In this document: positions 1,060 through 60,934 of the stretch, piece after piece
Position numbering within the stretch: the first letter of the stretch is position 1
How the letters are laid out: every line of letters begins with the position of its first letter
Origin: Onthophagus taurus
Taxonomy: Eukaryota > Arthropoda > Insecta > Coleoptera > Scarabaeidae
Reading direction: 5' to 3'
Assembly (NCBI RefSeq): GCF_036711975.1
Contig: NC_091973.1
Coordinates: forward strand, 1,550,001-1,614,000
DNA length: 64,000 nucleotides
Made by a program: the position numbers and the translations under genes
Notes under the pieces: model-generated
What the model was told of the DNA's origin: nothing
The model's database searches: none
Seen by the model: the letters and a program-made list of their open reading frames with translations, nothing else

Positions 1060-2211
1060 CTACTTCTCCTTTGTTAGAAAGCCGCTAGATCGAACGTTTT
1101 AAAAATAAGTCGAAAGGTATAAACGAGAAGGTAAGGGATCAATTATCGGGTTGGTTCCTTCTTTCTCCTTCAATAAACGAACAACGGTAAATTACTTCGG
1201 AAAGAATAAATTAATCGGTCCACTTAAAGTGAATCGAGGTTGTTCGGGGAGTTCCTACAATTCTTAATTTGGAGAACAGTTAGAGCGCGATTGTAGCAAC
1301 GGAGGGTTGACTAATCGATGCAACGGAAAGAATTGGCACTTGTTTGTTTTGAAATCCCGAAGGAGGCAGTCTTAAATTTGGAATGCATGTAGATAAATAC
1401 GCAATTATACTAAAAATATGGCGGAGGTGGCGGGGAATGAAATATTCTGGGAGGGCGGAAATGTCTCGTGCGCTTCAACGTGAACGGTTCATTGTGTTAC
1501 TTCTATCTCTCAACCCCGACCAGCCGTTATGGCAATGTGATTCACTATTTAAAGTTGCCGCACACGGTTTGATCGATATTTACCCCTCCTCCAGCTGGTA
1601 ACGTCATCTTTTTACGTTTTCGACACATTCCTATTTAACCAATACGCGTCACTTCAAACACTCGACTTTCGGAAGGGATTTTATTGGCATTTCTGATTAA
1701 ATCCGAATTTTCGCATAACAACAAAACTTTGAGACCGGTAATCTCATTGATTCCTTCGCCAAATGATAAATTTTCAATGAACCCCTCTGCTTTACCGTTC
1801 CCATTATAAATTCATCATTGAATCTCCATCGTCGCAGCTTATCCATCAAATTCGCTAATCGACCTGCATCTTTTCAAACAACTTGATTCAAACAAGAATC
1901 GAACAAGTCTTCGATATTGCTGGATGAAGTGGTGGATTATTGATTTTAGTTTGCTCGAGTTATTAACCGATATTCGAAGCTTTTTCGTTTTGATACCTGC
2001 ACCAAAAGCAAAAGGAGGATTCTTGAAGTTTCCGTTCGATATGCGTCGATTCGCACCATGCTAATGGCGAAATTCGGTACAACTTTCATCGTCCAAATCG
2101 TAGAGCTGAACGTAATAGATTGTGTGCGGGGAACCTAAACATTAAATGCACTTTAATCTTTATTTCTCGATATTTTTGCAATCACACATTATTAATTCTA
2201 TTTTTTATTAG
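1060..2211. other. Non-coding stretch, nothing recognised
   Basis: Only short unsupported frames with no family resemblance are present. I see no repeat, RNA gene or splice-linked exon here. The first 900 bases of the window are the same in character. Confidence 0.5.
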
Positions 2212-2924
2212 ATATCACTATTAATATAAGATATAATAAAACAATAATGTGTTTTAACTTCAGTTTCTCGCGTTTATTTTTAAATTTCCTCGGTACCGGT
2301 TTCGACGCTATATTAGGTCATCATCAGCCGAATCTACAAAACAATTGAATTACAAAAAATCCTGTATGAATGTGAATAATTAAAACTGTATATAAAATCT
2401 TATAAAATATAATTTTTTACAAACTTACGGTCAAAAATAAAAACTAAATTAAAATTGGAAACATCTGTTTGGTCATTAGAGATAAAATTTCACACGTAAC
2501 TAACAATTTAAAATTATTTTCACGAAAAGGACAACACTTGACATGAGACATGAAACATAAATCAAGGACTCAATACTAATACTATACTAATACTAATACT
2601 AATAATATTTTATCTCTAATCACCAAACAGATGTTTCCAATTTTAATTTAGTTTTTATTTTTGACCGTAAGTTTGTAAAAAATTATATTTTATAAGATTT
2701 TATATTATTTTATACACAGTTTTAATTATTCACATTCATACAGGATTTTTTGTAATTCAATTGTTTTGTAGATTCGGCTGATGATGACCTAATAGAGCGT
2801 CGAAACCGGTACCGAGGAAATTTAAAAATAAACGCGAGAAACTGAAGTTAAAACACATTATTGTTTTATTATATCTTATATTTATTAACCTCGCAACATG
2901 GATTCTAATAATATCACTATTAAT
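2212..2924. mobile_element. Foldback element with hammerhead-like motifs
   Basis: Left arm 2226-2490 and right arm 2607-2879 are near-identical inverted copies around a loop of about 115 bp that carries an (ACTAAT)n-like run. A 14-bp direct repeat, ATATCACTATTAAT, lies at 2212-2225 and 2911-2924. It reads as a target-site duplication, with a 31-bp non-palindromic tail between the right arm and the right duplicate. Each arm carries a CTGATGA...GAAAC block that can be drawn as a short type-I hammerhead. A long, non-TA duplication and ribozyme motifs in inverted orientation resemble Penelope-like or retrozyme-type retroelements more than a cut-and-paste transposon. That assignment is inference. 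Confidence 0.65.
2771..2820 (+). ncRNA. Hammerhead ribozyme-like motif (right arm)
   Basis: The core CTGATGA is at 2778-2784 and GAAAC at 2802-2806. Stem I would pair TCGG (2774-2777) with CCGA (2812-2815). Stem II would pair GAC with GTC around an AT-rich loop. Stem III would be ACC/GGT with no loop, and the cleavage position would follow A2811. A bulged U directly after CTGATGA is a weakness, and the loopless stem III could only work as a dimer, as proposed for Penelope-like hammerheads. The mirror copy on the minus strand lies at about 2289-2338 with one change in the stem II loop. Activity is not shown. Confidence 0.4.
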
Positions 2925-4693
2925 GTTATTAACTTCTCTTGGCTTTGAAAAACAAGTTTTGACACACACCAACACGGTGTTTGTACTTTTTGTTGTAACC
3001 ATTATAAAATAAAGATTTAAAATTAAATCAAATTTTGGGTGTTTTATAATGTATACATTTTATTTAGTATAAGTGAGTTGTAAAGACGAGTAAAGGGATG
3101 AAATTGGATAAAGATGAAGTTGTAACGTTCAAAATTTTTGGGGGGACGTAACGTAGATTCCGGTGCAAGGTAACGCGGTTATCCGCGGTGATCGTTTGAG
3201 TGTGTAAAAATGGGACAACTTTCAGCTCTTCGTCGATTTTCAAGTGGACGAGCAGAGAGAGGAAATTTCATTATACGATCGATGTATTTCCAACTTGTCC
3301 GCTAACTCTTCCCATTCCAGATTTGCTCAGCTTTCTACAAATAAAGGGCATATATTATAGATGCGAAGATAGATGCGTAATCAATATTTCAGTTGGGAGC
3401 ATTCTGTCGTTAAACGGCCGACGTCTCAGGATTTACTTTCGAATGGTAAGCGTGTTATTTTTTTAGCCACAGTTGATGCATATATCTCTTGTAAATGAAC
3501 CTTACGCAGTGGCATTCAACGCCTAGACTATTGTACTTAATAAAGGAGTACTTTGGTATTCAGGGCTCTGATGATATTAATATTTGTTTCATGAAACTCC
3601 AGCGTTTCATACATTAAATTTGTCTTTCAAACATATTACGTTTCCACCGCGTACTTCTATATTATTAACGAACTATAATATGTATAGAGAAAAAAGGATG
3701 AGACTAAATGAAACCTAGCTGGAGGGAAAATTATAAACCAAATTACCATATTTTTTCATCTGGCCGCGAACAAAATTGTAGCCGGGCAAATACATTTTTT
3801 GCACGAAACTTTATGTTTTCAGTTTCGAGGGCTTAATACTCTATTTGCCTTTTCCATACCTTTAAATTGCAGGATTTAACGTAACCGACTCGAAAAATAT
3901 TCACTCTCGCTAGATGTCCATGTTCTTACATCGCGTACTGAAACAGCTCGGTCTCTGTTTTTGAAAATAGATGACCCGCGTTTATGAATGTGCCTGAATG
4001 TTAAATTTAATTAAACAATCCCCGAGGATATTATAAATTAGCGACACACGAGGAAACTTAGAACGCCCTTGGGTTGCTCTCTCGCGTTGCTATAGATATT
4101 CTCGGTTTATGTACCTGACCTTTGTTCATTTTGTCTCGCACCGTTTTATTCGCGTACGGGTTTGAAGTCACTCTTTTTGAACATCACCGCTTTTGCATTT
4201 TCACCACCGACCTACTTACAACCATTAAACTCTTCTTAGCAGCTTTTAGCTTAAATTATTTTCTCTATCCTGATTACTTCTTTCTTATTCGCTCAACTGC
4301 GAAAAAATCTTTTATAAGAGAATCTTTTCGAAAAGAAATAACTTGTCTGATTATGTACTATTATCGGATTATGTTGTAGATGCTGCAATATACCGATTGG
4401 TAACTTTAATTTTAGGAGATACACCCAACACGGACGTACGTATAAGTCATTGAGGTCTTATATATAATCTAGAGTGCGTATGTGGTGGTGGTGGGGGTAA
4501 TCAAAAAGTCAGACATGTTGGATGTACCGACCTGAACGTAGCTATAGTTTCAAGTCTCTATTGTACCTACAAGACCTACGATTATAACCTCACAATTTTT
4601 TTAAATATATATTGTTATTTTTATTAAAATTTTATTTTTATTGAAGGTTTTCGAATTCTTTTTGTTTCACATATGTTTTTTTATAATTTGGTT
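2925..4693. other. Non-coding stretch, nothing recognised
   Basis: AT-rich sequence with short frames only (for example 3200-3466 and 4122-4379) that show no domain, no signal peptide followed by a plausible protein, and no splice partners. A short TGGTGG-type simple run is at about 4482-4497. Confidence 0.45.
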
Positions 4694-16095: not shown

Positions 16096-16384
16096 TTAAT
16101 AATTGAAGATTATCATCGTGGATTTAGAGAGAATCGTTGAAGATAGTTCAAATATTCACTATTAGGCAGATAATAGAGAAATGCTGTTGAACATCCAACT
16201 GCAGCAACCAATTTCTCCAAATATCAAAATGACTGAAAATTGAAAAAATGATGAAAAAATTGATTTTCATGTTGTCTGATAGGTAAAAGTGTAACTTATC
16301 TTAGATACACCAAGAAATTCTACAATAAAAAAATAGATGTTAGTATAAAATTAAAAGTTTGTCTTTTATTTTATATAGAATTTA

Positions 16385-16425
16385 AGTCTAACTAGTTTCG
16401 GCCATTGGCCATCTTCAGATAGGCA
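16385..16425 (-). ncRNA. Hammerhead-like motif, second example
   Basis: On the minus strand: CTGAAGAT, then GGCC-AAT-GGCC as stem II, then GAA, then the self-complementary ACTAGT as a loopless stem III. This repeats the architecture of the motif at 2771-2820 with different stem sequences. Stem I is weak here, so this is a motif-level resemblance only. It may mark the end of an otherwise unrecognised retroelement. Confidence 0.28.
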
Positions 16426-16489
16426 GATTATAATATTACTATGTTGTATATTTTTATTGAACTAAAAAAAAAACTTTCAGTTGTCAATG

Positions 16490-17060: not shown

Positions 17061-18894
17061 ATCTGATTTCGACTTTGATATGTGATCTTTTTTAACAAAA
17101 GAAAAAGAAACATTAAGAAACTTGTTGGTAAAATGGATAAGATGAGAGTTGTTAATCTATTAGACCTATATTTTTAGAGAGATGAAAACGAAAATCTCGT
17201 TTTTCTCAACATTGTTCATTTGCCGCTTAGTCAAGTATCTTCAATTAATCTTGTATAAAATACTTTGAAAATACGCATGGATACAATTTCAAATATAGTG
17301 TAGTAAAATATTTTGTCTATTAAATATCCGATATATACAAATGTAATGAAACGTTGTAATGTTTTTCCTGGTCCCTCTACATCCCAAAATTGATAGAACG
17401 TGATTTTGTATAAGCAAACTAATTATGCCACCGACCGAAAGTGCAGACGTGGCTACTCCGAAAATTGTAATTTTATTGCCTATTTTTAACAATGTTGAAT
17501 ATAGCGTTTATTTAACACGTCATATAAATTCATCGTTGGCTCATTTTGTTTATTTTTACCCGTAAACAAGTCTGATGTAGCGACATCTTCACATAAAGAG
17601 CGAATCCGAAAACGCTTGCTTAGTAGACAGCTTTGATTTTGGATTGGAACAATTGAAATTGAACACGTAAAGATCATAAACACCGTTGTTGTATTGAATG
17701 CATGTGTTGTGATCGTCAAAACAATAAAATCAAGCATTTACATACAAATGAAAAATTGTAAAAGAGGTATTTTGCGTGCTCTTCGCATTAACGAGGAAAT
17801 ATAAAAATTTCGAAATATATATATGTTTATCGATTACCCCAAAAACGCGTTTTATAATAAAATATATTTTTATTGCTCCGGTGGCTAAATTTATGTTCGT
17901 TTTTATTTATTCCTGACCCTTTTATCAAAAACAACTGTATGGTCGTTATTGGATATTTCAACAAACAAAAATTTTAAACTACAAAACCATTCAAGTTTTA
18001 ACCAAAAAAAAGCCACAACAATTACAAGCCACCCTTGAAATAAGGGTTGTAAAGGGACGAAAACGGTCGACTATCTTTCGGCGTCCGAATTAGTTTTCCC
18101 TTCTCTCCACACTTACCGCTAATTTAATAACGGAAATGCGAACAGACTGTCGCTCTCTCTGACGTTCTGTCAACGTCAAAGTCAATGAGACCAACTCATC
18201 AACGTCCCAAAAGAAAATGGACCACCTAAATAAAAACTTATACTCGACTATAATCAATTACTTATTTAATACGTAATTAAAAAAAAAATATGCCAAAAAT
18301 AAAAATGAAGCATTTTTGTAATTACCCTAAGATTTGAATTTAAATTTTAAAGAAATCTGCTTTATTAAGCGCCATCTATTAACAAAATGCTGGAGTTTAA
18401 CACAAATTTGTTAAACGTAACCTATTTACCTTAAATTTACGAAATGAGTTGATATATATTTATGTATTATTCCGTGTGTAACCTCAACTTGTCAAATAAT
18501 TTCGAAAAAGACATTAATTACATTCCTTAATTACTTACATTATTACATTAACATTCCAATATCTCGTAAATGATTCATAAAGTAACACCTTTCAATGTTT
18601 TTATCATAACCTAATTAAAAAAAGAGCAAAAAAATCCAGCGGAAACACTCGGAATGATTAGCTGGAATGCAAGATAAGATCGCTACCAACAAGTTATCAA
18701 CGGCATGTTTTCTAGTTTGTAAGGTAATACTTTTTTTAAACGAATGCCGCGTATCGATATCGTGGAGAAAGTAAAAGTGTGCTAACGTGGAATGGGTAAA
18801 GCGAGGCCAATCGTTTTTAACTCTCCCAAGTGGCACACTTCTTATCTCGCTGCGACCACCAACACCTAAATTATTAATTATATTTATGAAAGTT
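17061..18894. other. Intergenic sequence upstream of UAP1
   Basis: No gene seen up to the UAP1 start. A GCGCCATCTATT motif at 18369-18380 is about 515 bp upstream of the UAP1 start codon. CG-containing sequence at about 18,060-18,190 could include promoter elements, but no TATA/Inr pair is clear. Confidence 0.4.
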
Positions 18895-20322
18895 ATGGAT
18901 GAACTAAAGAAATCCCTTGAAAGTGCAGGTCAAGAACACCTTTTAAAGTTTTATCATGAACTGGATGAGTCTCTTCGTGACATCTTCATGAGCCAGCTGG
19001 AACAAATCGATTTCAGCGAGGTAACAGAACTTTTCAAACGTGCCATAGCAACAGCCGAAGATGATGTCCAAAAGTTAGATGCAAGAATGAAACCTATTCC
19101 TGATGCTAGTTATGGATCAGAAATTAAATCAACACAAGAGGAATTAGATAAGTATAATGGTATTGGGTTGGAGGCGGTTTCGAAGGGCGAGGTAGGTGTT
19201 TTACTTATGGCTGGGGGACAAGGAACTCGCCTTGGGGTTTCGTATCCAAAAGGAATGTATTCAGTTGGATTACTTTCTAATAAAACTTTATTTCAAATTC
19301 AAGCGGAACGTATTCGCCGAGTTGAGATATTAGCCGAAAGACAAACCGGTAAAAAAGGCGTGATCACTTGGTACATAATGACGAGTAAATCAACAAAAGA
19401 ACCAACCGTTAAGTTTTTAATCGATAATAATTACTTTGGGTTAAACCCCGATAACGTTGTGATATTCGAACAAGGTGTTATACCATGTTTTGATTTTAAC
19501 GGTCGAATTTTCTTAGAAAATCGCCACAACATCGCCTTAGCTCCAGATGGTAATGGAGGGATTTACAAAGCTTTAGCCAAAAGTGGAGCTTTATCTGATA
19601 TGGAAAAACGGGGAGTTCGTTACGTTCACGCACACAGTGTTGACAATATTTTAACAAAAGTAGCAGATCCAATCTTCATGGGTTACTGCATCTCTAAAAA
19701 TGCCGATTGCGGAGCTAAAGTTGTTTGCAAAAGTACTCCAACAGAAGCTGTAGGTGTTGTTTGTCTTGTAGACGAAAAATTCCAAGTCGTCGAATACAGC
19801 GAAATCACCGAAAAGACAGCCCATCTTACCGACGACAAAGGTGATTTATTATTCAACGCAGGAAACATTTGCAACCATTTCTTCTCAACGAAATTCTTAA
19901 GAACGGTCGTCAACGAATTCGAATCACAATTAAAACTTCACGTTGCCAAGAAAAAAATCCCTCACATCAACAACAACGGCGAAATTGTAAAACCAACATC
20001 ACCCAACGGTATTAAAATTGAAAAATTTGTTTTTGACATTTTCCAATTTACCGATAACTTCGTCACTTGGGAAGTACCACGTCACAAAGAATTTAGTGCT
20101 TTGAAAAATGCCGATGACGCCGGGGTTGATTGTCCATCAACAGCCCGTAAGCATTTATTCAATTTGCATAAAACGTATTTACAAAACGCAGGAGCCATCG
20201 TTGAAATTGACGAAATCGAAATTTCACCTCTTCTTTCTTACGGCGGCGAAGATTTAAACCACTTCAATGGACAAACAATCAATACTCCTTTATATTTAAA
20301 ATCGAAACAAGAAGAAAACTAA
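18895..20322 (+). CDS. UAP1: UDP-N-acetylhexosamine pyrophosphorylase
   Basis: The cytosolic enzyme makes UDP-GlcNAc from UTP and GlcNAc-1-phosphate, the last step of the hexosamine pathway. It supplies chitin, N-glycans and GPI anchors; the fly orthologue is mummy. The nucleotide-binding signature LLMAGGQGTRLG followed by VSYPKGMY is at about residues 102-122. The tracts NRHNIALAPDGNGGIY and FNAGNICNHFF are also typical. The open frame continues upstream to 18787, but those extra residues have no family match. The start at 18895 (G at -3, G at +4) puts the signature at the usual position and gives 475 aa; 18886 is an alternative three codons upstream. The gene is one uninterrupted exon with a long AT-rich 3' flank, and it converges on the succinyl-CoA ligase gene. 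Confidence 0.95.
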   Translation: MDELKKSLESAGQEHLLKFYHELDESLRDIFMSQLEQIDFSEVTELFKRAIATAEDDVQKLDARMKPIPDASYGSEIKSTQEELDKYNGIGLEAVSKGEVGVLLMAGGQGTRLGVSYPKGMYSVGLLSNKTLFQIQAERIRRVEILAERQTGKKGVITWYIMTSKSTKEPTVKFLIDNNYFGLNPDNVVIFEQGVIPCFDFNGRIFLENRHNIALAPDGNGGIYKALAKSGALSDMEKRGVRYVHAHSVDNILTKVADPIFMGYCISKNADCGAKVVCKSTPTEAVGVVCLVDEKFQVVEYSEITEKTAHLTDDKGDLLFNAGNICNHFFSTKFLRTVVNEFESQLKLHVAKKKIPHINNNGEIVKPTSPNGIKIEKFVFDIFQFTDNFVTWEVPRHKEFSALKNADDAGVDCPSTARKHLFNLHKTYLQNAGAIVEIDEIEISPLLSYGGEDLNHFNGQTINTPLYLKSKQEEN

Positions 20323-21781: not shown

Positions 21782-23126
21782 TTACGCTAAACCTAAACGT
21801 CGCATTTCTTTTAACAGTTCGTTACCCATCGCGGCTGGGGACTTCGTTACAATAACACCAGCCTAAAAAGAAAAATGTTAATATTTGGTATAAAAATGTG
21901 TTTTTTTACCTTTTCTAAAGCGTTGATTTTATCTTGGGCTCCACCTTTACCACCAGAAATAATAGCACCGGCGTGTCCCATTCTTCTACCAGGCGGGGCA
22001 GATAATCCAGCGATAAATGAAACAACTGGTTTTGCGTTGGGACCCTAAATTCAAATTCAAAATTTTAATTAAAAAATAATGAAATTGTTATATATTTATT
22101 ACCGTATTATTTTTCATGAGATATTCAGCGGCGTTTTCTTCAGCAACGCCACCAATTTCTCCAATGAGGATGATGCCTTTTGTTTCTGGGTCATTAATGA
22201 AGACTTCCAAGCAGTCGATGAAGTCGGTTCCATTGAATGGATCGCCACCGATACCAACACAAAGAGTTTGGCCAAGTCCTACTTGGGTGGTTTGATGAAC
22301 GGCTTCATAGGTTAAAGTTCCAGAACGGGAAACAACACCCACACGGCCTTTTTGATGGATATGACCCGGCATTATACCAATTTTACACTGAAATAAAAAA
22401 ATAATGCTTACATAATCACTAAAATAATTTGTAATGTACATACTTGTTCTGGTGCAATAATTCCAGGACAATTAGGTCCAACAAGACGACTTTTGTTTTG
22501 TCTCAACAACTTATGTTTAACTTTGACCATATCATGCTGTGGAATGCCCTCAGTAATACAAACAATAAGGGGAATTTCTGCATCAATAGCTTCTAAAATA
22601 GCTTTAGCAGCACCTGGTGGTGGTACATAAATTACAGTTGCATCACAACCAGTAGCATCTCTAGCTTCTTTTACACTATTAAAGACGGGAAGATCGAGAT
22701 GTTTCTTTCCACCTTTTCCAGGGGAAACGCCTCCAACCATATTCGTTCCATACTCAATGGCTTGTTTGCTATGGAAAGTGCCTTGTTTTCCAGTAAACCC
22801 TTGGCAAATGACTTTGGTGTTACCAGTTAACCGAAGATTGTTTCTAGTTGCATTGTAGCTATTATAACGAACTGGTTGGACATTTTTGAGAGCGCCTATA
22901 AAATTTTTGAAAGAAAATAATAGATTTAATACCAAGTTGTTAAAATTGCACTTTGTACCCTTATAAAAAAAGTACGCGTGGTAAATAATAATTTTAAGAC
23001 AAGTTTTTTAATTAAACTCCTTATAAATAAATTAAGCGCATTATGTAAGTTTTTTATTTTACGATGTGGAATTTTTCATTTTGACTTACCGAATGCTCTG
23101 CTGAGTATCTTCGACGATGATGCCAT
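21782..23126 (-). CDS. SUCLG1: Succinyl-CoA ligase alpha subunit, mitochondrial
   Basis: The alpha subunit of the TCA-cycle enzyme converts succinyl-CoA to succinate with GTP or ATP formation, in the mitochondrial matrix with a beta subunit. Five coding exons on the minus strand: 23126-23090, 22895-22444, 22387-22103, 22044-21910 and 21862-21782. All have GT/AG borders and compatible phases, giving 329 aa, the usual length. The N-terminus [12 protein letters not shown] is a short basic Ser-rich leader of presequence type. Family blocks in order are the CoA-binding region ([20 protein letters not shown] and GGVSPGKGG), [33 protein letters not shown] and [17 protein letters not shown]. The last contains the active-site histidine. 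Nothing is broken. It is convergent with UAP1. Confidence 0.96.
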
Positions 23127-23651: not shown

Positions 23652-24963
23652 AAAATTTAGAAAGTATTACATTACATTACATAGAATACCCAACAATACT
23701 AAACCCAACAAGTTGAGGTGTGCTTTTAATCGGCAGTGCCCAGTAAAAACACCCATTAGAACTTTTATGCTACTACGGGCAAGTCCTAAAATATTTCCGG
23801 GTTTGACAGTGGTGATGTTAATAAACACCTTAGCATGTCTCATTCCAGGAGAACTGATTCACAGTAGGCGAAGTCTCTCTTCAGCCCACAGTCCAATCCT
23901 ATATTTGGCCATCGCAAATGATACACCAACTGCTGGTTCCGGTCCCACAAACGCTTCAGCGCTGCCATCTCGTGCTAGCTTATCTGCCGCTTCATTGCCA
24001 GCAACACCAGAGTGACCCGGGACCCAGATCAGAGAGACTCTGTTATCACAACACAGTGTGTTTAATGTTCTCTTACAATCATTAACCAGAGCCGACACCG
24101 TTTTCACGGCTTGCAGCGCCTGGAGAGCGGCTTGACTGTCTGAGAAAATTCGTACTGTCATGTTCTTCACCCCTCTTTCAAGAAGGATTTTAGCACCCAT
24201 GTCAATAGCAAATACTTCCGCCTGGAAAACAGTACAGTACGTACCCAGGCTGTAAGCTTGCTTAATTCAAGATGTCTGGCAGTATACTCCTGCTCCTACC
24301 CCTTCAGGCGTTTTTGATCCATCTGTGTACAAGCAAATGTCTGCCCGAACCAGAGAATTTTCATTTTCGATCCAGGACTGCCGCTCAGGCAGTACAATCT
24401 GGTATCGAGCGTTAATCACTGATAGTGATACCGCCAAATCTGACGGCATTGATAGCACAGTATCAGTGCTTATAATGTCTTCCGCAGCCCATTGGTAGGA
24501 CATGTCGGAACAGTTTTGAGCATATTGCTTAAATCTGTAAATGGTTGTTCTAGCCACTTTCTCTATATGCAAATGCAGAGGAGATAGGCCAAGCAGAACC
24601 TCCATTGCTAGAGTTGGCGTTGTGCCTATCGCACAAGAGATTACCAATCCAGCTACTCGTTGAATTCGTGAAAGTTTACTGATAACTGAAGTCTGTCGGA
24701 CTTTCCTATACCAGGCTGCTGCTCCGTATGTGATCATAGGTCTAACCACAGTCACATAGAGCCAGTACAGTCTTTCAGGGGTAAGACCCCAATTTTTCTA
24801 GCTTTGTGCAAAACTCCCTGCAAATGTCCATTCCATGACAGGGTTTTGTCTAGGATTACTCCTAGATATTTGACTTCCTTTGAGAAAGAAATTTCTTCAC
24901 CTTGGATAGTTGGGCGGATTAGTCCATCCAACTTTCGCTTCCTGGTGAAAATTTAGAAAGTAT
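23652..24963 (-). mobile_element. 5'-truncated non-LTR retroelement (I group) with target duplication
   Basis: The flanking direct repeat AAAATTTAGAAAGTAT lies at 23652-23667 and 24948-24963, so the insert is 23668-24947 (1,280 bp). On the minus strand it encodes the last part of a reverse transcriptase (KYLGVILDKTLSWNGHL, then ITYGAAAWY) followed by an RNase H domain with LYTDGSKT, FSDSQAALQAL and WVPGHSGVAGNEAADKLA. An RNase H after the RT is typical of the I/R1/LOA group rather than Jockey. The 3' tail is a short (TGTAA)n run (23668-23682 on the plus strand). Two in-frame stops, near 24270 and 23859, interrupt it. It is a dead, 5'-truncated copy. Confidence 0.88.
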
Positions 24964-25602: not shown

Positions 25603-28600
25603 CTAATTTCGCCTAGTAAAGTTTTGTTTTTTTAAATGTTTTAAGGCGCATTTAGCTGCCGTACACTTGGCGATACGATAATTTCTGCCGATTCCTTTGA
25701 AAATACCTTTTCCAAAGACTTCAACCGTCACGCGCACTCTTCTTCCATCGACTAATTTTTCTGGAGTTCCGAATTTCGCTGTTTCGGGTTCCAACTCCAG
25801 TAATTCCCTAATAGGCGACTTTGGAACTTTATCGCTAAACTGTTCGATTTCATTTTTCATCATTTGATAGTAAACTTGCCAAACAGCGTCGAGCGATCTA
25901 CCGGAATCTAAATAAATCGCGCCAGCAATCGATTCAAAAACGTCGCCTAAAGCTTTAGGTACTTCTACATCTTCGACTTCTTCGCATTCATGTTCGGCTA
26001 ATAAATATAATTCTTCGGCTAACGCGTGCCCACTTTCTTCTTGTAATCGAACGAATCTTTCAACTACTTGGTGTAAACCAGGCGATAAATGTCGAAAGTA
26101 TTTATGAAATCCATGTCGCACCGCTAAAGACGCAAATATAGTATTATTGACTAAAGCTGAACGTAAATCTGTTAACGCTCCGGGGGAATGCATTCTGCTG
26201 TCTTCATACAAATGTCTAGTGATTAAATAATCTAAAACGGCGTCTCCCAAAAACTCCAATCTTTGATAACAGTCGGTCAATGTATTGCTGGAGTAAGAAG
26301 CGTGTGTTAACGCTTGTAATAAATAAGCCCTATCTCGAAACTGATAACCAATATTCTCTTCAAATTTAGCATAACCATCCAAAAGAATATCCAATTCCCC
26401 TTCCGGATCCGGAACATGTCGTAACAAGGGTGATTTAGGATTTTCTAATTTTCCATAGCTGCCATCTTGCAAACGAGGTAAAACTCTTATCCCTAACCAC
26501 GCCATAAATAAAAGTGCTCCGTGTGGACCACATTCAATTAAATAGGCTCCAATTAACGCTTCAACACAATCTGCAATACTTTTATCGGGAATGCTATGTT
26601 GTGTTACTAAATTATATGGAATAGTCCCTGGCAAATCGATAAGTTCGCCTAATTTTTGTATTTGAAATGTGGTATCAATAATTTCTTGTGGCCTATTCGA
26701 ATGTATCACTCCTGAATTTAATAAAGCTTCTTCTAATTCTCTAGGTACGTAAAAACACGGTGGCAACCAATTGTCATGAGGATCAAATTTCGTCGCTATC
26801 ATACACTCACCAAGATTTTTTCTTTTCCCCAATCGATACAAATTTAAATTACTAACTTGTTTCGATCGTAAATGACTTAATTTACCTTCATGTACGTTCT
26901 CGTATTTTGAATATAAATAATCAGTGATTGCGTATTTTAAAAATGAATCTCCAATCGTTTCTAAGCGTTCCAAATTGATTCCGTCGTTTGCGTTCGACAT
27001 CGTTAAAGCTTGTAAAATAACACTCGGACTTGGACCTGGATGATCCTCTAGCGACGGTTGAAGATCAAAACTAAACGGTAATTTCATATTTAAACACTGT
27101 ATTTTATCGTTGAATATTTTATCCCCAGTTCCTGAATTATACTCCGGGCAAAGATCTTTTATAAGAACGTTATTATCTAAGGCAATTTGACTTTTTTCAG
27201 AATTTGCAATGTTGGCCTTCTTGAAATTTGATTCTTTTCTTATATAAATTCCGGAATTAAAAATGGTTTCAACGTTTCGATTGCAAGCTTCTAAAAATTC
27301 TTCTTTTAGTACGGTCATACTGTCATCTGTAACCATATTGTAATTTTCCCAAGAATCAGTTACTCGTAACAAATGGCTGTCATCATCGTGTTGGACGCCA
27401 GTATCAACAGCTTCAGCTATATTATCACCCATAAATTCAATGTGTAACCCTCCAAATTCTGAGCTAGATTCGTCCTCGGAATAACATTCATCTGAATCAG
27501 AAAAATCGTCATACGTTTCCGGTAGCCAACTTGTTGGTGATGCATATCTAACCATCGCGTCATTTGCAATTTGAATATCAATCATATCATTTGACCAAGT
27601 ACCAATTTCCAAATTCCAATCTTTTTCATCTTCCTCCTCTTCGCCATTTTGGATTTCTTCGATAATTTCGACGGATTCATCTTCGACGATTTCCGTGATT
27701 TTTTCTCGAGTGGCTGATGAATGTCGTGAATGCTTTTCTTGGAGTGCGTTATCTTGAGGTTTCTTTTTTAGTACTTCTAAAAGACTCCATCCAAAATTTA
27801 GCGTTGGCCATTTGAAGTCTTGCGGCAAATTTTTTTCGCCTAAATTCATTTCGTGGGCGACGGTCAATCGGATTTGATCTGCTAACAACAACGCGTTTAT
27901 TCGATACAAAATACAAGGTAAACAAACTGCTTTTCTCCATAACGAAGCGGGAAATGGATGAACCGCACATAATTCAGGTACTAAAATTTGTTTTTGCTCC
28001 AAATTTTCGCGCTTTGCTCGTTTAGTTTCTTCACTACTGGTCGGTAACGCAACGCCTTTTCTATTCACGTATCTTGGGGTTAAAAAATTTAATCGTGCTG
28101 AGGTGTGATCGACGTCGAGTAAGTGTTGTTGAAGATTTTGTATTTTAATGTTATATTTTCGATTGTAATATTCGTCGAATGTTGCGTACTCCGAGCCGGG
28201 AAACGCCGATTTTGGATTCAAATTTGTACAAATTTCCGCTACGTAAAAATATTGGGGTTGATCGCGATTTCTGTACCAAGGCATCACGACAGCATCCTTG
28301 TATTTACATGGTTCAAACTTGTAGTTGACGCGTTCTTCATCCGATATTGATTGTGGTAATATGTTACGATTATCATATATTAAGTCGATGAAATCCCAAT
28401 CGATTTTTGTTGTATTATTAACTAAAAAAATTAAAAAAATAAATTAAATTATACCTATTAAGTTAAGTACCTGTAATCGTAGGGGCGATTAAATAGGAAC
28501 TGTCGGCTTTTTCCGGTTCGAATAACATTAGGTATCGTTGAAGTCGTAAAACGCTAGTGAAAGTATAATTTAAAAATTCCCTTATCTTATGGATTTTGTC

Positions 28601-31600: not shown

Positions 31601-33952
31601 TGCACTTTTGCTCTCAGATGCGTCAATATCGAGAAAAATACAAAAATATGAAAATTTGACGAATTCGTTGCTTTTTTAAGCTGTTAAGGTAACACTAGGG
31701 AAACGGAGCATACTACTAAAAAACTTTTTAAGCAAAAGTTGTAGATAATTTCATTCTTAACAATATTGCACTCTTGCACTTTTGCTCTCAGATGCGTCAA
31801 TATCGAGAAAAATACAAAAATATGAAAATTTGACGAATTCGTTGCTTTTTTAAGCTGTTATGGTAACACTAGGGAAACGGAGCATACTACTAAAAAACTT
31901 TTTAAGCAAAAGTTGTAGATAATTTTATTCTTAACAATATTGCTCTCTTGCACTTTTGCTCTCAGATGCGTCAATATCGAGAAAAATACAAAAATATGAA
32001 AATTTGGTGAATTTATTCCTTTTTTAAGCTGTTATGGTAACACTATGGAATCGGAGCATGTTATAAAAAAACTTTTAGAACAAAAGTTGTAGCAAATCTT
32101 ATTCTTAACAATATTGCTCTCTTTCACTTTTGCTCTCAGATGTGTCAATATCGAGAAAAATACGAAAATTAGATGAATGCGTAGTTTTCTATGTTGTTAA
32201 TAGCAACTCCCGGGGTTCTGAGTATATTAGATTTTTTTTTATAGTTTTATAATCCACCAATATCTAGATCTAGTAGTCGCAGTATCTAGTTTTCCACAAT
32301 CTCTCAACAGATTTTTCACTCCATCATCTTATATTAGATGTAGAAACTAAGACAATGTGATACTGCGTTCTTTCAGAAAAGGATAGTTAATGGATAACAA
32401 AAAAAATCAATTGAGGTTCCTTATATTTGTTGATGAATGAGCTATAAAGTTAGTGAGGGAAAAAATTAAAACACCATGATTGCCAATTTGTTAGTAATAA
32501 AATCACAACTAATAAAATTCACTTTATTAAGTTTATTCCATTGTTTTAGAATGGTTCAAAAAAAACAGAATTACGACTGTTAGAAGTCGTAAAATTGTTA
32601 TTAACAAATTAAATGTTGAGATTGCTAAAAGATAATTTTTTACTTACCGAAAGTAACATGAATAAAACTTTAGCAGTCATGCGGTTGTGTACAAAAACTA
32701 AAGCGCATAAATTATCGTCACTTTGTTGGCGATGCATCATTAATCGTTTAGGTCCTCTATGATTTTTTCTTCCCGTTCCTTTGCCCAATTGTGGAACATC
32801 TGTAGGGGTTGTATCGCTAAGAGTAGGAGGTTCAGGTGGTTTTTCGTAATTAGCGGGTTTAAATTCTTTAATAACTTCTAAGAAACGTAAAACTTTCGGA
32901 CTGGAATGTTTTGCGATTTTTTCCTTTTCCTCAAGATCGCCAAATTCCGAGTCGCAGTAAGCCCTAATTTCTAGCATAACAGTAAATATCATACACAAAA
33001 GGAGATAGTGTCTCTCGTAAGGAACTTTAACCTTCAATTTTTCTATTAAAGATATAGTGTTTAAAGCAGCTTGATCGACGGCCCATGGTCCAAGATCTTC
33101 GAGTATTTTTAAAGTATCGTTTAAAAATTCAAGCGGTTGTAGCTTTGGGTCGGGAACTTTTAAGAATTCTTCTAAAAGTTCGTCTGAATAAATTTCACTT
33201 GGATCGTAACGGTGTTCGGCAAGAAATTCTTTAGCGTTTAATATGATATGTCGAAGTTTGTCGCATAACGGGGTAGGAAGCATTAAGGCGCATTCAACAA
33301 CGTGCTCTTTTGGCCTACAGCAAAGTCGCAACAACGTAACAACCTCGCTTGATGTGTCAACAGACGAACGAAGAAGTTTTTCGAGGCGTTGCATCTCAGC
33401 TTCTAACAATACTGGACGTAATTCGGTACTGAGTAAACCCGCTACTAAGCCTAATACGCGCGGACGATCGTCAATATCCAATTCATCATATTTAATCATC
33501 AATTTTTCTACTAATTGTTGCCTAGAACCGTGTAGACAATCATCTATGACTAGCAAAACTAAATTTGACAAACTCAAACTTCCGTTTAATATCAGTTCAA
33601 TGCAGATATCTGCTGTTAATACTATAACAGAATACTTAGATAATAAATCATCCCATTCTAAGTTATCTATTGAGAGTACACTAGTAACAGTAAGGTCAGT
33701 AAGTAATCTAACTTGTGTGGTCATGATTGAAATATTCTCTGAATCTAATATAAAAAGAGCTCGTTTACCACGATGCGAACGCATACACCACGAATATTCT
33801 TGTACTAATTTAACAGCAATAAACGTTTTCGCTTCTCCAGTACTAGAACATACGATGGTGTTATTTCTTTTAATCGAATCAAGCAACTCCACTTGATATT
33901 CTCGCGGAGTAAAAGTGTGAGTATACACATTATCCAATATGTGATACGCCAT
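25603..33952 (-). CDS. Dcr-1: Dicer-1 (microRNA-processing RNase III)
   Basis: It cuts pre-miRNA hairpins in the cytoplasm and loads Argonaute with a dsRBD partner (Loquacious in flies). Four coding exons: 33952-32648, 29806-28742, 28684-28471 and 28421-25603; phases agree and give 1,800 aa. Domains: helicase-like 15-535, DUF283 about 565-670, platform/PAZ about 790-1060, acidic linker about 1105-1235, RNase IIIa from about 1322 (LERLETIGDSFLKYA at 1345-1359), RNase IIIb from about 1555 (QRLEFLGDAVLDYL, and GDVFESIAGA with D1688 and E1691), and a dsRBD about 1731-1795. The helicase is decayed: SSTGEAKT replaces a P-loop and DDCLH replaces DECH, as expected for insect Dcr-1 and unlike ATP-dependent Dcr-2. 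Intron 1 (2.84 kb) holds a satellite array. The gene is divergent from the palmitoyltransferase gene. Confidence 0.96.
29820..30276. other. Dicer-1 intron 1, part beside exon 2
   Basis: Two direct copies of a GGGTGTGTCCA(A/C)ACAT block (about 30031 and 30154) look like end fragments of a DNA transposon. No coding sequence. Confidence 0.35.
30277..32205 (+). repeat. 174-bp satellite array in Dicer-1 intron 1
   Basis: About ten to eleven head-to-tail units of 173-174 bp. Each contains GGAAACGGAGCATACTACTA, AGCAAAAGTTGTAGATAATT, CTCTTGCACTTTTGCTCTCA and GATGCGTCAATATCGAGAAA. Spacing of the AGCAT word (30491, 30664, 30838, 31011, 31185) fixes the period. The left edge carries a leader with the hairpin GGCCGAC-TTCGAAGAC-GTCGGCC (30301-30323), also present at the start of the array in Cdc14 intron 1. 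The last unit diverges at about 32165-32205, as at satellite edges. Confidence 0.92.
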
Positions 33953-51536: not shown

Positions 51537-54500
51537 TTACTTAGAAACTTTCATAAGGGGTAAATGAATCTTCTTACCACTTTTAACATTCGATTCTGAA
51601 GGATTGGATGCATGCGATCTTCTTTGCACCTTGACGGACCGCGGACTTGTAGCTTTATCCTTTTCCATATTCAATGTTCGCTTGACGCGTTTTGTCACCT
51701 TAACATCAACGACCGTTTTCTTTTCTCCGCCCGTGCTACATGTAGTATCCATTTCCTCCATGGTCCATCCGTTGTTTTCATTTTTTTTTGCCACCACCTT
51801 CGGTTTACCATTCCGCAATAACGAAGCCCCGCTGGTTGTTTTAGTTAACGCCGCCGCTACCTTACGCTGGCTGAGACGCCGAGCGACCGTCGACGTCGTT
51901 TCCGTAACCTCGTTTCTGTTAAACACAAATTATAACTCGAATAACAGGAACCATTTCGACTTTTATTTATTTTAATCCAAATCCGGACCACCCCAAGCAT
52001 GCCCCTTTTTTTTTGAAAATATTTTTTTTTTTAATTTGTCTTTTTGATTTCGCCCCCGGACGATTTCTTTGCGTCTGTTCTATTGGTGAATACAAAAAGA
52101 AAAAAATTTATGTTTTTTTATTGAAATTGTTATTTTTTTAATATTATTTTTGCAGGTTATATCACATTAATAATGTTTTAATGTATTTAATTATTTAGAA
52201 TGTGTTTACATAAAAATATTAACCTGCAAAATAACGATTTTTCATTGAACTAAAACTAGACTCACAACTAAAAATTTTCGGGCTATCCCGTGCGTCTTTT
52301 GAAAAAGTATTTGACGTTTTGGATGCAACATGGCGTTTAAAACGTCAAACACTTTTTCAAAAGACGCATGGTTTAACCAGAAAGTTTCTAGATCATGTGT
52401 TAGTTCTACTTTTAGTTCAATAAACACCGGCTGTAAAAGCCTTCGTACTTATAACGATTTTTAAATTTTTTAAAATGAAATGATGGTTAAAAAACGAATA
52501 ATGGGCATGTTTGAGTCATGGAGAACCTTTTAATACTATTCCTCTAACGCTAAGATTAAATTTAAAATTAATCAAGGAAGCATTAATTGAAGCGTTTATT
52601 TTTAGTTAATTAGTTTTACTATGATTCGAATTTAACATACCTTTTTACAAGCACTCGAGAAATGGATGGGGTTGGTGCTTTGGTTGTAGTACAAAGTACT
52701 TTACTCACTCTTGTTATCGCCGAGGTAGTCTCAACGGTATTTACCAACATCTGTGACCTAAAAGTTCTACATTCCCTTTAAATATAAAAAATTAATTTAA
52801 GAACACATTTTTGTTAATTAACTTACGATGGATTTGTAACAACGTGACATTGTCTTTTAGCTTTAATTTGATTTAATCGATCACCTTGAGTAATTCCATC
52901 TTCTTCGTCTTCTTTTTCGGAATTGTCATTAAGTTGCATTGTGTCAACTTTCTTTAATATTCTGGTAACTTTATCGTTTAATTTTCCTTGTTTTCCAGAA
53001 CCCTCTAAAGGTCCAACCGGGGCGTGTTTGCTATAAATGCCAAAACGATGTTTTGGCATCGAAGTAATGCCGCGTTTTCTTCGATACGCCTCTCCTTCTT
53101 TCCACATTTGTTCTTGTTTTCGATCCAACCACTCTTGTTGGTGACCGATAACCGATCCCGGCCGACATATTCGTATCCAAGCGATTGCTTCGTGCGACGA
53201 AAACTGATAATGTTTCATTAAATAACAACCGATTAAAGTCCCGGTCCTTCCTAACCCCGCTTTACAATGAACCGCAATTGCGCCATCCGTTTTTTCGCAT
53301 ATATTCATAAATTCATTGAGAATTTTTACGGTTGGGGTACTTCCATCGACGAAATATAGATCATAATGTTGAAACCCGGCTAATAAAAATTTATTTGAGT
53401 CATAAATTCGTTTATTTAACCGGATTATAGTGGTGACGTTGTGCCGTTGAAAATATTTAAAGTAAAATTCAGGCGAGTGAAGCGGATATCCGTTCACGTT
53501 TCGGGATTTATTATGCGGACCGCAAAAACCTAAAAATTTTTCGGGAACTATCCAGTTTAAATCGCCGTTTTCAACACATTCATAATGTTCGTATTGTAAA
53601 TAATTAAACGAAGTAAAATCAAAAAATCCGAAATGAAAAGCTTTCTCCAAACCTTTCAAACAATCTAATAAAGATATGGTGTAACCATCTGGACCATTTG
53701 AAGCATCGCGGAAATGAATAAACGGATATCGATTGTCACCAACGAGTGTATCGTAAGCTTTTTGGGCATCCCAATTCAAATAAATAATCTAAAATCAATT
53801 TTAGATTAAAAATTTATTTAATTTTAAGCAAAAAAAATTATTTACTGCATAGCTGCCGATCAAATACGCGGCATTCGCTCGTTTCCGGTAATCGTCGGTC
53901 GTTGTGTGAACGATTTTTTTCTTTTCCAAGGCGGCGCAGCTTAATTTTAAATTTAGCTTTGTGCAGTAGTGGTACAACATCGATATGTTTAACGGCCCAA
54001 AATCATCGAAAAAACTATCGTATGTTAATTGCCCTTCTATTGAGAAGAAATGTGTAAATTGTGTCGATTTTGGTTGATCAGTTGTCTTCAATGTCACAAA
54101 ATAAAGACGATCTAAAAACAAATATTTTCAAAAAATTAATAAATAAGCAATTTTATTAATTACACAAAATATTAAACCAGTAACTTTGAATTAAAGCAAT
54201 TAAGTTTTAAGTTAAAAAATGTTACTTCACATTTCTTGCTATTTTATTCTTGGCAATTCAAATATAATGGATATAATTAAGAGTTGAAATTAACATTGTG
54301 CTGACCAGGAACTGACTTAGGTTGCTGTTATTGCTATAGGACTTAATAGGTATAATAATAAGATGATTATTGACCAGAAAAGTTGCAAATGAATCATAGC
54401 ATCACTCGGGATTCGGAGCGTCAAACCAACTCAACCCTGCTAGAAATTTATGAAAGAAGTTATCTCGGCCGACTTCGAAGATGTCGGCAGCTCTAAATGT

Positions 54501-59695: not shown

Positions 59696-60934
59696 ATGGC
59701 TTCGGTATGGGAAGACAAAGAAGTCCGCTTTGATGTTCCTTTCTCGTTAGTTAATAACAATTTTATATAAACAACGTTGTAATTATTTTATGTTAAAGAG
59801 ATATGAAACTCAGAGTCGGTGAAAAATTGATTGATAGAATGGATAATGTGGAAGACACCAAAGGAAACGCCGGGGATCGAGGGAGGTTTTTAATAACGAA
59901 TTTAAGACTCGTCTGGCATTCTTTGAGTAGCCCAAGAATTAATTTGTGTTTGTTATCATCAAAAATTTTTTTGTTTGTATTTATTTAATTTTTTTTGTAG
60001 CAATTGGTTTTAATACAATTTTAACTATAAATTCGAAAATAATTAATTCTGTAAGAAATTATTTATTATTAAATTTATTATTAAATGATTTTATTTTAGA
60101 AAACTCAGTATCCAACGCGAGCTTTACACATGATGACCGCTTGTGATAAAGCAAGATTTGAATTTATTTTCACGAATTTGGTCATAACTGACAAAAAACA
60201 TTTCCAAACTGTCATCGACGTCCATCGAGCTTATATTTCTTCGAAACCTTATCGGGAATTAAAACTTCGCGGTGCCATTGTGCGTGAGAATCGATTAAAA
60301 ATTTTACCGTTAGAACAAATCTTCGAAACGTTTTATGGCGTTTGGAATTTATCGACTGATCAAGGTAGTTTGGGAACTTTCATCATCACCAATGTTCGAT
60401 TGGTTTGGTTTGCTGATACAAACGAAGGATTTAACGTCTCTTTGCCATATCTTCAAACGGAATCTGTAAATAATGTTGTTAAATAATTTATTAATCTAAT
60501 TTATTAATTTTTTTTAGGTCAAAATGTGTGATTCAAAGTTTGGCCCCGCATTAGTAGTAATAAGTTCCGAAGAAAGTGGGAGTTTTATTTTGGGGTTTAA
60601 GCTAGATCCGGAGGAAAAAATGCGCGAAGTTTATCAAAAATTAACTTCAGTTTATTCCGTTTATTTTAACAACCCTATTTTTGGGGTTGAGTACGAGTGG
60701 GATCAGAAAAAGAATGGAAATAACTCCAATGAATTAACCCAAAACTATTTAATCGACGATTTATACGTTTTGGACGATAAAGCCGAAAATGTAAATGAAC
60801 TTTCTGCTTATTTGGCAGAAGAAAACAAGGATGTGGGTTCTGGACCGGTTTTTAATAGCCAGTTAGGATTGGCTGTTCAAAGTGTTAAAGAAGGTTATAG
60901 TTTAGCAAATTTATGGGAAGTTGTTTCAACATAA
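59696..60934 (+). CDS. BBS5: Bardet-Biedl syndrome 5 protein (BBSome subunit)
   Basis: A BBSome subunit with two PH-like domains that binds phosphoinositides and helps traffic membrane proteins into cilia. In insects it should act in ciliated sensory neurons. Exons: 59696-59745, 59799-59947, 60001-60050, 60100-60465 and 60518-60934. All phases agree, giving 343 aa against 341 in human. The start [14 protein letters not shown] matches the vertebrate WEDRDVRFD region. Other conserved blocks are [45 protein letters not shown] and [14 protein letters not shown], and the end SLANLWEVV. The exon 2 acceptor is set at 59798 (AAAG|AG), because this keeps frame ([10 protein letters not shown]). Introns are all about 50 bp. 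It converges on the chitin-binding gene. Confidence 0.94.

Follow-up and report, generated by a model that had tools for sequence, protein, structure and literature searches.

The pLTRs of Penelope-like elements (PLEs) are said, in work by Lunse and colleagues from 2017, to carry type-I hammerheads with a very short or absent stem III, for which cleavage as a dimer was reportedly proposed or shown. Type-I motifs, minimal or canonical, number more than 6000 in a coral genome, according to the available part of one report (PMC7229834). The way in which PLEs insert is still poorly understood (PMC11167929). In an active element both strands are cut, and are extended from two neighbouring sites within the RNA; the in vitro study reports no difference in start site between strands, and no RNA read in it ended at the hammerhead site (PMC11167929). 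PLE hammerheads and inverted pLTRs are already in print.

The 64-kb window, the whole stretch of Onthophagus taurus DNA analysed here, comes from a genome of 290.8 Mb and holds a 713-bp palindrome at 2212-2924 with a hammerhead motif in each arm. It is not a new foldback or inverted-dimer element, but an element of a known kind: in all likelihood a single PLE insertion of which truncation on both sides has left the pLTR. There is nothing unusual in the palindrome as such, but its family yields two testable facts, namely an extra nucleotide at position 9.1 of the hammerhead in nearly all motifs listed from the genome, and one tail in every head-to-head pair examined.

Anatomy of the palindrome

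The insert has two inverted arm pairs, 2220-2413 with 2692-2885 (194 nt, 96%) and 2390-2488 with 2607-2705 (99 nt, 99%). Both edges of the insert carry an exact 14-bp direct repeat, ATATCACTATTAAT, at 2212-2225 and 2911-2924, which is read as a target-site duplication since pairs elsewhere in the family show similar repeats. Inside it lies a left pLTR at 2226-2582, with its sense on the minus strand and an untailed outer end (sense ...TATCTTAT), as delimited by arm copies in the genome. An ACTAAT-like simple repeat at 2583-2606, placed by its sequence and by the arm boundaries, forms the junction with a right pLTR at 2607-2879 (plus strand), which family comparison shows to be 5'-truncated at sense position 95. 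Beyond this, at 2880-2910 on the plus strand, a 31-bp "tail" runs from the pLTR end into the first codons of the PLE ORF (ATG at 2898-2900). The tail matches those of other copies at 90.7-100% among the matches listed, and its counterpart in locus L011 leads into a 521-aa ORF. The two arms differ by about 4%, which may reflect age or two template RNAs.

An earlier note made from the sequence had described the arms and the 14-bp duplication, and both are present, with two corrections. Judged by the ends of family members, the left boundary of the element is 2226, so that 2220-2225 belong to the duplication, and the right end has 31 extra bp (2880-2910) that are absent from the left.

Elsewhere in the window, two pieces of a Dicer gene lie on the minus strand, one at 25603-28287 with RNase III, Dicer dsRBD and PAZ domains and one at 32609-33952 with the Dicer partner-binding domain (Pfam). 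Other host genes, again by Pfam, are found at 18787-20319 (plus; UDPGP), 22408-22935 (minus; a CoA-binding domain, read here as succinyl-CoA ligase-like), 52823-53779 (minus; a dual-specificity phosphatase, read as CDC14-like) and 60130-60486 (plus; BBL5/Bardet-Biedl syndrome 5). An RNase H domain at 23859-24200 (minus) probably comes, by its setting, from a retroelement.

Membership in the Penelope-like elements

A genome search with the insert returned 109 pieces that match it; 40 of the 210 candidates were scored and, the insert being a palindrome, many places are counted once for each strand. Outside the window the longest matches run to about 360-390 bp. The family loci considered below are the ones most similar to the insert rather than a random sample. 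At the five places compared, GIY-YIG domains lie 138-142 bp from arm copies, and the arm unit is always 3' of the domain. Pfam finds RVT_1 (3.5e-9) and GIY-YIG (1.9e-6) in one ORF at L010; at L011, RVT_1 falls in one ORF piece and GIY-YIG in the other. The order at L011 is a pLTR, then ATGGATTCTAATAAT... opening the 521-aa ORF that carries RVT_1, then the second ORF piece in another frame, and then a second pLTR. Because arm copies adjoin GIY-YIG domains and L011 reads pLTR-ORF-pLTR, the arms are, on the basis of RVT_1, GIY-YIG and anatomy, the pLTRs of a Penelope-like element. The link to these elements, which the earlier note had drawn, is borne out in this way.

Could the palindrome nevertheless belong to a different class? 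Its shape, with a flanking duplication, is also that of a class-II foldback or MITE-like DNA transposon with long terminal inverted repeats. However, the related ORFs tested encode RT and GIY-YIG rather than a transposase, the duplications vary between 10 and 14 bp instead of being of fixed length, and the two ends differ by the tail, so that this origin is extremely improbable. The combination of a DDE transposase with a fixed duplication, which would have spoken against a retroelement, accordingly did not turn up. Tandem direct hammerhead units, as expected of a retrozyme, are likewise absent: the arm units are inverted. What the family does show is an ORF with RT and GIY-YIG, pLTRs in direct or inverted order, a tail from the ORF start and a short duplication of variable length.

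Hammerhead motifs in the arms

The core pattern CTGATGAN{7,24}GAAACCGGT has two matches in the 64 kb and no others, at 2295-2327 on the minus strand and 2778-2810 on the plus strand, while none of 100 shuffles reaches two matches (the largest count was 0). The full motifs span 2285-2336 and 2769-2820. Read from the sequence, stem I is UCGG/CCGA, stem II is GAC/GUC and stem III is ACCGGU, and in the left arm stem II gains CUA/UAG across one bulged base. Both motifs fit the core CUGANGA...GAAA...UH with stems I and II, plus one extra nucleotide at 9.1. Cleavage is predicted 3' of the A at 2294 in the left arm and 3' of A2811 in the right, the latter being the base that the earlier note had picked out.

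Rfam has no match at the gathering cut-off in the whole window, and at 2150-3000 it returns four matches down to E 10, none of them a hammerhead; the loopless stem III presumably accounts for this failure. A covariance model built from this genome's own motifs, with the insert's family left out, finds the arms at E 4.5e-13 (left) and 1.6e-12 (right), and its next matches in the window stand at 0.071, 1.3, 1.5 and 1.6. A covariance search of both arms, proposed earlier as a check, thus fails with Rfam and succeeds with the genome-derived model. Since within the window the pattern occurs only in the arms and a family-excluded model recovers both, the claim of one hammerhead-type motif per arm holds, and its description as a minimal type-I hammerhead with a short, self-complementary stem III is supported.

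Two other places in the window resemble these motifs. At 16381-16427 (minus) the model match at E 0.071 is a hammerhead-like motif, CTGAAGA-T-GGCC-AAT-GGCC-GAAACTAGT, whose stem III, ACTAGT, is self-complementary and differs from that of the arms; a stretch of about 86 bp starting with this motif recurs in the genome, in most cases with 95-99% identity (40 places scored). A hammerhead-like core at 3568-3597 is absent from the model matches down to E 10 and is taken as chance.

The extra nucleotide across the genome

With ten further letters added (the first H, the last D), CTGATGAN{7,24}GAAACCGGT has 680 matches in the genome against 0 in a backward control. Of the first 100 of the 680 listed, 84 were matched up with their 5' flank and 16 were dropped, leaving 75 distinct motifs, which supply the unselected stem figures. 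Skipping one nucleotide after CTGATGA lets the first three positions of stem II all pair in 56 of 74 of these motifs; without a skip the count is 0 of 75, and with a skip of two it is 7 of 74. The skipped nucleotide is T in 72 of the 75, A in two and C in one. For stem I, 248 of 300 cells are paired, where 1000 shuffles give a mean of 149 and a maximum of 175. An alignment of 25 of the 75 motifs (A1), the source of the covariance model, has a covariation score of 0.97, against 0.05-0.20 with the partners slid by 1-3; its share of paired cells, 93.5%, is overstated, the motifs having been hand-picked for diversity and clear stems. A1 holds no motif with the stem II of the insert's family and two with its stem I.

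A looser pattern, which fixes neither N7 nor the middle of stem III, has 4,160 matches in the genome and 40 in the control, so that by this measure the genome holds about 4,100 minimal hammerhead-like motifs. The first 100 matches listed have CG, TA or AT, all self-complementary, in the middle of stem III in 83 cases, and among the 87 distinct motifs that they contain the skipped nucleotide is T in 80. The extra U had been held to be the weak point of the hammerhead assignment; in these motifs it is rather the rule. The compensatory changes in stems I and II that genome copies might have lacked are present and, together with the self-complementary stem III, agree with selection on the hammerhead fold. 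A stem III of this kind fits the pairing of two copies, as far as its sequence tells.

Does this fold cleave? The presence of the extra U neither excludes nor demonstrates activity. The resemblance might have been retained for another reason, such as RT binding, in an RNA that does not cleave: the PLE hammerhead of Anolis is inactive without protein and its loss has no effect on insertion in vitro (PMC11167929), and an extra core nucleotide in a viroid hammerhead is said to go with weak activity (PMC11014351). Compensatory stems I and II, and a self-complementary stem III middle in 83 of the 100 motifs listed, argue the other way and make a non-cleaving RNA unlikely, though it is the most serious of the alternatives considered here.

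The motif can also be followed outward from the endonuclease. Forty loci reach about 1.1-2 kb 3' of a GIY-YIG match, and the core pattern occurs in 16 of them and not in the other 24, where the core may be of another variant, the 3' end may be missing or the distance may be greater. Two of the 16 (L040 and L041) have the core on the strand opposite to the endonuclease. The covariance model was run on 16 loci near GIY-YIG, comprising 13 of the core-positive ones plus L030, L031 and L035 (L035 and L045 are one place), and 14 of them have a match at E 1 or below. The two without one are L030 and L031, which overlap L040 and L041, and the model match at L043 (601-629) differs from the core-pattern match there.

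Can the palindrome act as a dimer?

The motifs of the two arms lie on opposite strands, and any one transcript therefore contains the motif once in sense and once in antisense. Folding predictions for the full-length insert give a duplex between the arms at -400.9 kcal/mol, against a mean of -103.5 for 20 shuffles. A hammerhead dimer drawn from the motifs reaches -17.9 kcal/mol, the best co-fold -25.6 and two monomers -17.8, so that nearest-neighbour energies do not favour the drawn dimer, and the monomer is no stabler than its shuffles (z -0.13). Opposite-strand motifs and the predicted duplex make it unlikely, on these folding models, that the palindrome itself works as a hammerhead dimer. 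The proposal of a non-autonomous element with an inverted-dimer structure is left unsupported for the same reasons. Dimers might instead arise from two separate molecules, or in tandem copies at other sites. In longer copies the hammerhead probably works on sense transcripts that are paired or in tandem, either as a dimer or helped by protein, rather than within the palindrome.

Tails and duplications of head-to-head pairs

Head-to-head pairs make up 15 of the 26 family loci examined, and exactly one end is tailed in all 15. Were the ends independent and tailed with a probability of one half, such a result would arise by chance about 3 times in 100,000. The untailed end falls at sense position 350-363 in 12 of the pairs, for which alone the corresponding figure is about 2 in 10,000. 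The other three stop short of the usual pLTR end, at 347 (L012), 332 (L020) and 329 (L028), and may have lost a tail through truncation. The 11 loci that are not paired comprise L011, with its direct pLTR-ORF-pLTR order, and ten others, three of them tailed. The tails of L020, L021 and L025 end next to the flank in a variable number of AAT repeats, as though reverse transcription had slipped on AAT at its start.

Exact duplications of at least 10 bp (10-14 bp, lengths that may include a few bases common to the element end) bound 11 of the 14 head-to-head pairs examined, a set that leaves L020 aside; none of at least 10 bp was found at L012, L028 or L082. Other families look much the same. Twelve foldbacks from about seven families, as told by stem II, were compared by eye: ten have one tail bearing an ATG, two (L084 and L091) are ambiguous, and seven of the twelve have a clear duplication of 9-13 bp. 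Hammerhead neighbours less than 1 kb apart are head-to-head in 9 of 11 cases, tandem in two and tail-to-tail in none (first 100 of the 680 places); with the loose pattern the counts are 13 of 16, two and one (first 100 of the 4,160 places).

Do such foldbacks form a family of their own, non-autonomous and retrozyme-like, that propagates as a palindrome with its two hammerheads cooperating? The recurrence of head-to-head pairs in other families would be in keeping with this, as would the several short foldbacks without an ORF in the insert's own family (L021 and L079-L082). Yet these five and the window copy all differ in their central breakpoint, which points to a separate, curtailed insertion in each case, and nothing suggests a master copy. 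Copies with long ORFs (L009, L010, L024 and L026, of which L010 was tested with Pfam) have the same head-to-head ends, and the opposite-strand motifs with their predicted duplex tell against cooperation. A self-propagating foldback is on this evidence very improbable, and truncated PLE insertion is the reading followed here.

A model for insertion

One tail per pair, in 15 of 15, suggests that both target strands serve as primers and that the RNA is copied from two start sites. The PLE endonuclease would make a staggered cut at the target, and both target 3' ends would then prime reverse transcription of PLE RNA. One cDNA would start inside the beginning of the ORF and give the tailed end; the other would start at the end of the pLTR, some 31 nt further upstream, and give the untailed one. 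The two cDNAs would grow toward each other, stop early and be joined head-to-head. A staggered cut, two-strand priming and cDNA joining would together explain the head-to-head order, the duplication and the two types of end.

Another course would be self-priming, in which one cDNA snaps back and copies itself to give inverted arms, as proposed for the palindromic junctions of rotifer PLEs in the available part of PMC3846280. This accounts for the head-to-head order but not for the fixed untailed end: it would be expected to give a tail at both ends or scattered ends, whereas 12 of the 15 untailed ends lie at sense 350-363, and the duplication encloses the whole insertion in 11 of 14 pairs. Its chance of being the right explanation is small, if somewhat better than that of a self-propagating foldback.

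Priming on both target strands can be taken in a stricter sense, in which the two strands are obliged to use two different fixed RNA start sites. Every two-ended insertion would then have one tailed and one untailed end, head-to-head pLTRs would be the normal product rather than an accident, and the window copy would be its minimal form. The three truncated untailed ends weaken this version, and the in vitro work, with no difference in start site reported between strands, does not predict a strict one-tail rule. Obligate use of two sites is accordingly a tentative idea, standing a little below even chances. The limited PLE literature examined holds no statement of such a rule that we could find, and we do not claim that it is unpublished. 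The one-tail pattern ties the anatomy of the genome to start sites seen in vitro, and would account for the frequency of head-to-head PLE copies.

Comparison with known elements

The metazoan retrozymes resemble the insert in having type-I hammerheads within small retroelements. The accessible portion of the relevant report (PMC7229834) describes tandem repeats whose hammerheads are canonical and which have circular RNA, whereas the units at 2212-2924 are inverted and belong to one insertion of a PLE pLTR.

Further parallels come from Adineta vaga, where Pen2a and others, as far as the available part of PMC3846280 describes them, share with the insert's family a single ORF with RT and GIY-YIG and head-to-head pLTRs. 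They also show a short duplication of variable length and a 31-bp tail on one pLTR, as here. The window copy differs in lacking the entire ORF and in having a duplication of 14 bp, against 9 bp in print. In the same portion of that source the tail is optional, whereas the insert's family has one per pair in 15 of 15.

The Poseidon element of Anolis carolinensis (PAc) has its hammerhead at the boundary between pLTR and ORF, as the insert's family does (PMC11167929). Its start codon comes after C3 and G8, and its ORF begins at stem II, a layout that, going by the description rather than by the PAc sequence, would fit an extra U after A9. The PAc ORF thus starts inside the hammerhead, whereas in the insert the distance from the cleavage base to the ATG downstream is 87 nt (2811 to 2898). 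In PAc, too, the tail is explained by two start sites of reverse transcription, and both target strands are cut and extended (PMC11167929), just as is proposed here for the family of the insert.
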